Assembly: GCA_023250585.1 (NCBI GenBank)
Contig: JAHFAK010000099.1
Span: 1-8,921 of the forward strand
Length of the DNA: 8,921 bases
Origin: Deltaproteobacteria bacterium
GTDB taxonomy: Bacteria; Bdellovibrionota_F; JAHFAK01
Reading direction: 5' to 3'
Shown piece after piece: positions 8,122 through 8,388 of this stretch; the first letter of the stretch is position 1, and each line of letters starts with the position of its first letter. A program made the translations under genes and the position numbers. The notes below the pieces were generated by a model. It did not search any database, was not told the DNA's origin, and saw nothing but the letters and a program-made list of their open reading frames with translations.

Positions 8122-8127
8122 AAAAAA

Positions 8128-8199
8128 AGGCGGCACCCGGATTTGAACCGAGGAATAAAGGTTTTGCAAACCTCTGCCTTACCACTTGGCTATGCCGCC
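8128..8199 (-). tRNA. tRNA-Cys (anticodon GCA)
   Basis: The 72-nt cloverleaf reads on the minus strand. Acceptor stem GGCGGCA (8199-8193) pairs perfectly with TGCCGCC (8135-8129). The D stem is GCC/GGC, the anticodon stem GAGGT/ACCTT (one G-U) with loop TTGCAAA giving anticodon GCA, and the T stem CTCGG/CCGGG (one wobble) with loop TTCAAAT. The discriminator base is U73 (position 8128), the known identity base for cysteine tRNAs. The 3' CCA is not encoded; the gene is followed directly by a T run (8127-8122), so CCA must be added enzymatically. It lies 19 bases upstream of the tdh start on the same strand and 5 bases from the inverted-repeat element, with no clear promoter of its own in between. 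Confidence 0.97.
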
Positions 8200-8206
8200 T
8201 CGTTAT
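8194..8206. repeat. 13-bp direct repeat, copy 1 (includes tRNA-Cys 5' end)
   Basis: GCCGCCTCGTTAT on the plus strand; 8194-8199 is the acceptor-stem start of tRNA-Cys and the remainder is its 5' flank. An identical copy lies at 8295-8307, 101 bases away. Confidence 0.85.
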
Positions 8207-8223
8207 ACTCAGTCGCATTCAAA
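8205..8223. repeat. Terminal inverted repeat, arm 1 (19 bp)
   Basis: ATACTCAGTCGCATTCAAA is the exact reverse complement of 8310-8328. The flanking bases do not pair, so the boundary is sharp on both sides. Confidence 0.95.
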
Positions 8224-8278
8224 CGCTAACTTCGTTGGCTTCGTCAGAAAGCTCCTCGACGTATTAAAATATACGCCT

Positions 8279-8299
8279 GCGGCGCCTCTTCCTCGCCGC
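8279..8299. repeat. GC-rich hairpin inside the inverted-repeat element
   Basis: GCGGCG (8279-8284) pairs with CGCCGC (8294-8299) around a 9-base loop. It is not followed by a T tract on either strand, so it does not read as an intrinsic terminator. Confidence 0.6.
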
Positions 8300-8307
8300 C
8301 TCGTTAT
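8295..8307. repeat. 13-bp direct repeat, copy 2 (tRNA 5'-end fragment inside the element)
   Basis: GCCGCCTCGTTAT, identical to 8194-8206. It lies just inside inverted-repeat arm 2, whereas copy 1 lies just outside arm 1 and overlaps it by two bases. Confidence 0.85.
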
Positions 8308-8309
8308 CA

Positions 8310-8328
8310 TTTGAATGCGACTGAGTAT
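8310..8328. repeat. Terminal inverted repeat, arm 2 (19 bp)
   Basis: TTTGAATGCGACTGAGTAT is the exact reverse complement of 8205-8223. Confidence 0.95.
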
Positions 8329-8366
8329 TTAAACACGAAATTCTACAAAAATTATTATTGAATGTC

Positions 8367-8388
8367 TAGACGTAAGAAATAGACGTAA
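8367..8388. repeat. Short direct repeat TAGACGTAA x2
   Basis: TAGACGTAA occurs at 8367-8375 and 8380-8388, a 13-base period, in the leader region before the peptidase gene. It may be a regulator binding site or chance. Confidence 0.4.

Follow-up and report, generated by a model that had tools for sequence, protein, structure and literature searches.

A probable MITE beside tRNA-Cys in a deltaproteobacterial genome, with arms that covary copy by copy and a structured core

The Element beside tRNA-Cys

The window analyzed here, 8,921 nucleotides in length, is the whole of contig C18 in the assembly of a Deltaproteobacteria bacterium (Bdellovibrionota_F; JAHFAK01). This genome has 2.24 Mb in 164 contigs, of which ~634 kb was read as stretches, and its phylum is represented by two genomes in the collection searched. 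The window carries a tRNA-Cys gene on the minus strand and, next to its 5′-end, a 124-bp inverted-repeat element, a copy of what is called family A below (Table 1). A reading made from the letters alone (the sequence-only reading) had put the outer arm 5 bases from the tRNA 5′-end, and the gap is indeed 4 or 5 bases by the ARAGORN and Rfam boundaries, respectively. Its description of perfect 19-bp terminal inverted repeats around a GC-richer interior of 86 bases in AT-rich DNA, without a gene in the 124 bp, also holds: the two arms are perfect complements (an inverted-repeat search calls the same repeat as 26 bp at 92% as well), and GC content is 53% in the interior vs. 34% in the window. One reading frame stays free of stops for ~40 codons in most copies of the element. 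On either strand, the element folds better than all of its dinucleotide shuffles (z = −7.1 for the plus strand and −9.2 for the minus strand). The three nested hairpins that had been proposed give way in the best fold to a single long minus-strand hairpin, which small internal loops rich in purines interrupt. Rfam has no match for the window element, nor for five element loci at a permissive threshold. A 13-bp direct repeat, GCCGCCTCGTTAT, occurs at 8194–8206, across the 5′-end and flank of tRNA-Cys, and at 8295–8307, on the right side of the element core, perhaps by chance or through target choice.

Table 1. Features at the tRNA-Cys locus (positions in the window)
Feature	Position	Strand	Remarks
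tRNA-Cys(gca)	8127..8200	-	ARAGORN; Rfam gives 8128-8199; sole copy found in assembly
Left target duplication copy, TTA	8203..8205	+	Includes first base of the element as first reported; TNA pattern over 37 copies
Whole element, family A copy	8205..8328	-	Strand of conserved fold = tRNA-Cys sense strand; fold z -9.2
Left terminal inverted repeat, ATACTCAGTCGCATTCAAA	8205..8223	+	First 12 bp variable among copies, ATTCAAA nearly fixed
Structured core (model R2)	8237..8300	-	Covarying short helices, conserved purine-rich internal loops, CGTA..TACG closing hairpin
Right terminal inverted repeat	8310..8328	-	Exact complement of left arm
Right target duplication copy, TTT	8328..8330	+	One base off TTA; TNA pattern over 37 copies
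Likely original tRNA-Cys promoter, TAGACA-17-TAGAAT	8340..8368	-	Consensus match 10/12

When the element and one copy of its target duplication are removed and the flanks are joined, the −10 box of the likely promoter comes to lie ~12–15 bp from the mature 5′-end of tRNA-Cys, which is a normal distance. Judging from this arrangement, the element now appears to separate the promoter from the tRNA. It would have landed in the tRNA-Cys leader, between the promoter and the mature 5′-end, and the pre-tRNA leader should therefore contain its hairpin, which would probably be transcribed within pre-tRNA-Cys and then cut off by RNase P. Since no second tRNA-Cys gene was found in the assembly, expression of this one must be tolerated despite the element.

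Dispersed Copies and Target Duplication

The 124-bp unit is present in ~45 copies in its own genome by sequence search, and a census with a covariance model gave a similar result. The copies have conserved arms and differing flanks, which is what the sequence-only reading had expected of a dispersed element; a single copy fixed beside tRNA-Cys, which it had named as the sign of a local structure, is not what the genome holds. Nearly all copies are intergenic in a simple reading-frame survey, and several contigs end inside or beside copies, as is expected of repeats. No copy of the unit was found in 40 relatives, one of them of the same class, and the covariance model found none in this class relative. 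Matches to the 19-mer in Enterovibrio and a planctomycete were dismissed, being as many as expected by chance and having no second arm. Lone left ends of family A without a right end, diverging at different points, occur at L046 (~1533), L048 (~1548), L049 (~1556), L053 (~1527), L070 (~1504), and L076 (~1458). On C164, a left end lies 2 kb from a right end, and the pair was considered as one element and rejected; the interval looks like two host genes, which in translation look like the SurA/peptidyl-prolyl-isomerase kind, and the ends that enclose them are therefore taken as separate decayed pieces.

Target duplication was analyzed in an alignment of the 37 copies having both ends. Two bases out from the element, the left flank (−2) has T in 32/37 and the right flank (+2) has A in 32/37, and the base adjacent to the element is identical on both sides in 22/37 vs. 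10.1 expected, a value that none of 20,000 permutations reached. No other pair of flank positions comes near this match of the middle base. An exact 3-bp duplication is found in only 17/37 copies. Given the T-N-A pattern of the flanks, the terminal A and T of the element as first reported are best read as the inner ends of the duplication, and the element proper would be TAC...GTA inside a 3-bp TNA duplication. The occurrence of ~45 copies, nearly all of them intergenic, flanked by such a duplication indicates a mobile element of the type of a miniature inverted-repeat transposable element (MITE). Indeed, the characters of a MITE are found together here: short length, terminal inverted repeats, lack of a transposase gene, dispersed copies with differing flanks, and target duplication. 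This distribution also bears on the idea that the hairpin belongs to tRNA-Cys as a local regulatory or RNA structure, to which the closeness of the element to the tRNA and the best fold on the tRNA sense strand would lend themselves. With ~45 copies elsewhere beside unrelated neighbors, and with the target duplication pattern, this idea is highly improbable and is refuted as the origin of the element, although the element may have taken on a regulatory role at tRNA-Cys later.

Partner Insertion Sequence

A genome search with the arm tip found ATACTAAGTTGCATTCA on C65, C27, and C155, each time at a contig break and with T-N adjacent as at the MITE. These IS-like ends have the same 17–19 bp in common with the MITE, and their tips carry TACTAAGTTGC. 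Two of the three are 98% alike over 120 bp, and in them a reading frame starts after a ribosome-binding site; in the third, a possible reading frame finishes, its stop codon lying inside the repeat. A candidate for the autonomous element with the same arms that the sequence-only reading had called for is thus seen in part: IS-like ends are present at three contig breaks, where the assembly has only the start and the end of reading frames, while the interior is missing and the transposase is not seen whole.

The C-terminal 30 residues of the putative IS have 48% identity over 25 aa to an IS630-type transposase from a Polaromonas plasmid (E = 0.1), and the N-terminus has no match in Pfam or NCBIfam. 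The C-terminal similarity points weakly to an IS630-like transposase. IS630 usually duplicates TA, which would leave the matching N unexplained, a pattern that comes mainly from the MITE copies, the IS flanks being three and one-sided. From the flanks, TNA duplication would fit the IS1031 group better than the TA of IS630. An IS630 fragment on C118 was considered as the partner and rejected, no matching end being visible. A truncated IS630-type transposase beside an IS3-like element lies at L088 1546–1995. The IS transposase would recognize the shared ends, move the element, and insert it at TNA between genes. Mobility, which had earlier been deduced from the build of the element, is now supported by the target duplications and the IS ends.

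The sequence-only reading had left the choice between a MITE and a REP/BIME-like element; the terminal repeats, the 3-bp TNA duplication, and the ends in common with an IS support the former and do not support the latter. If the element were a REP/BIME repeat mobilized by a RAYT (IS200/IS605-like) transposase, it would likewise be palindromic, intergenic, and multicopy. However, the present element has target duplications and long terminal repeats common to it and an IS, and with 124 bp it exceeds the 20–40 bp of REPs (PMC3733652), so that this origin is very improbable. On the features of its sequence, we place the element in a MITE family that is new and has an IS partner seen only in part.

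Structured Core

The copies have one minus-strand fold in common, in which short helices are split by conserved purine-rich internal loops. In 12 diverse cores, pairing reaches 95.6% vs. 28–45% in slid controls, and 19 cells are double-changed vs. 8.1 in shuffles; mismatches in the inner stem are G-U nine times on the minus strand and once on the other. The window core scores 77.6 bits with core model R2, the window copy being among the 12 source sequences of the model. The full model picked up this core between unrelated arms at C132 (72 bits; the C132 core was later included in building R2) and more weakly at C141. A core with other arms also lies on plasmid pGLOV01 of Trichlorobacter lovleyi, a member of another phylum, between a DUF2149 gene and cobN; it scores 54.6 bits with R2, which was built without the T. 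lovleyi sequence, and gives 76–80% identity by blastn (E = 2e-4 to 2e-7). This is the one clear relative of the core beyond its own genome in the collections searched. Core patterns in viral contigs were set aside as weak or chance matches only. In tandem contexts, orientation relative to transcription is 12 vs. 7, with no significant preference. A palindrome at L140 3450–3583 with 22-bp arms of different sequence (TTTCAGTACCCAACATCAGAAC) scores 20 bits with R2, and its interior has short helices and GA-rich internal loops in the same style as the core.

It could be supposed that the core does its own job as a structured module of RNA or of single-stranded DNA, for example as a protein-bound or processed hairpin, that the arms merely close it and can be swapped, and that IS movement is secondary. 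The cores with unrelated arms at C132, more weakly at C141, and on the T. lovleyi plasmid agree with this, as do the purine-rich loops kept while the helices covary and the G-U bias toward the minus strand. Against it stand the lack of a significant orientation preference, several short copies without the inner hairpin, and the single clear relative outside the genome in the collections searched, and on balance we consider it unlikely. In the preferred explanation, that of an IS-moved MITE, the minus-strand fold would matter as single-stranded DNA in transposition or as a host-sparing transcript.

Covariation of the Arms

Over their first 12 bp, the arms differ among copies and yet are complementary within a copy, and the ATTCAAA part is nearly fixed. 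Tip changes are the same on both arms in 40 cells and affect one arm in 26, and the two arms of a copy agree in 415/444 tip cells, where permutations reach 376 at most, although relatedness of the copies inflates such counts. Double changes are found in lone copies of the main group, which is uniform in other respects (C73 at position 4 and C43 at position 1), and at C63 the arms are 33 bp long, the left matching the right throughout. One-sided mismatches in the tips show no strand preference, and RNA selection on the tips is therefore not indicated. Extension of the palindrome into the flanks (up to 4 bp) was considered as a proof of conversion and was judged to lie within chance.

Arms behave in a similar manner in family C, which is unrelated to family A and has 18 copies. 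Within-copy arm identity is 99.3% over 30 bp, arms of different copies are 54% identical ungapped and 71% gapped, and the loop is 90% conserved; this even stronger matching favors copying between arms. Family C palindromes are seen at L051 1015–1143, L133 1816–1932, L111 3730–3846, L116 1084–1198, L142 6258–6372, and others, mostly with near-perfect arms of 33–47 bp and a conserved loop of 39–40 nt (CGTCGCTTCCATAATA..TTAAGAAC..AAGCGCGC). Long inverted repeats number 74 per Mb in 40 contigs not picked for family A; the class relative, whose GC content differs strongly, has 2.6 per Mb.

Copying from arm to arm, probably by template switching in replication, would be the most economical reading of these sequences: one arm would be copied onto the other by quasipalindrome template switching. 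Such copying within quasipalindromes is well established as a source of mutations; it is known from E. coli and has been proposed for RNA genes (PMC7202029, PMC8794818). Tips that vary are unexpected where a transposase should bind and count against an IS-moved MITE. The covariation could instead reflect transposase subfamilies, several in number and each having a terminal repeat of its own, a reading that competes with arm copying alone and leaves the element a MITE anyway. The main tip, ACTAAGTTGC, is that of the IS too, and ACTCAGTCGC recurs in several copies, both of which suit such subfamilies. Nevertheless, double changes in single copies otherwise near-identical to the main group (C73 and C43), the 33-bp arms of C63, and the contrast in family C between within-copy and between-copy arm identity make this origin rather improbable, and copying between arms is preferred.

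Further palindromes populate the genome. One of family B (arms AAGGTGCCCGGCAACTTCCGGTC; L043 24–100) interrupts the gene for RNase P RNA at what looks like helix P12, and a family A copy (L043 315–438) starts at the 3′-end of this gene. The palindromes of family D lie at L048 806–930, L130 8637–8768, and L071 394–532; their arms resemble GGAACCTCTACAAAGG, and their loop measures ~90 nt. At L026 1492–1610, a family A copy is fused to a family C palindrome at the common string GTCGCTTCC, which suggests recombination between palindrome families.

Comparison with Known Elements

RUP of Streptococcus pneumoniae, a 107-bp element proposed to be moved by IS630-Spn1, resembles family A in size, intergenic copies, TA at both termini, a highly base-paired transcript, and ends common with a resident IS, possibly of the same superfamily (PMC2229807). 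RUP inserts at TA, whereas family A duplicates TNA, and RUP has 9-bp terminal repeats, covarying arms not being mentioned for it in that review; the two are compared by description only (PMC2229807). Rickettsia palindromic elements are also similar, as palindromes of 105–146 bp with long stem-loops, but have 12-bp terminal repeats and a target duplication marked unknown in the review, while family A copies are nearly all intergenic and have a clear duplication (PMC2229807). The IS1031 group of the IS5 family has the TNA target and the 3-bp duplication; family A is likened to it by target and ends alone, and the ends of a described member of that group are GAACCTG..., vs. TACTAAG here (PMC12016507). 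Chunjie, a MITE of Geobacter uraniireducens, likewise has many intergenic and partial copies (PMC10969869), and the plasmid that carries the family A core is from Geobacterales too. Chunjie measures 178–235 bp and is set beside family A by description only (PMC10969869).

Meaning of the Covarying Arms and the Core

As a whole, the explanation that the element is a non-autonomous DNA transposon, a MITE moved by an IS into the tRNA-Cys leader, with arms copied one onto the other and a fold that matters, is very probably right. More tentatively, and with doubt prevailing, one may imagine the core as an undescribed structured module of at least two phyla that is read from one strand, has repeated purine-purine internal loops, and travels with interchangeable arms, while strong arm-to-arm copying in this genome keeps several unrelated palindrome families perfect as their sequences drift.

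Compensatory changes in stems usually count as proof that an RNA is functional. Repeat arms that covary copy by copy within one genome, including those of family C, provide a natural test of whether covariation of this kind can arise by template switching alone, and are a caution for RNA discovery based on covariation. What goes beyond the routine here is this within-genome covariation together with a structured core common to another phylum. The core in common with a Geobacterales plasmid also speaks for a mobile, structured module found across phyla and absent from Rfam. With arms that change among copies and still match each other, hairpins seem to be actively kept perfect in this genome, and the structured core may be more widespread.
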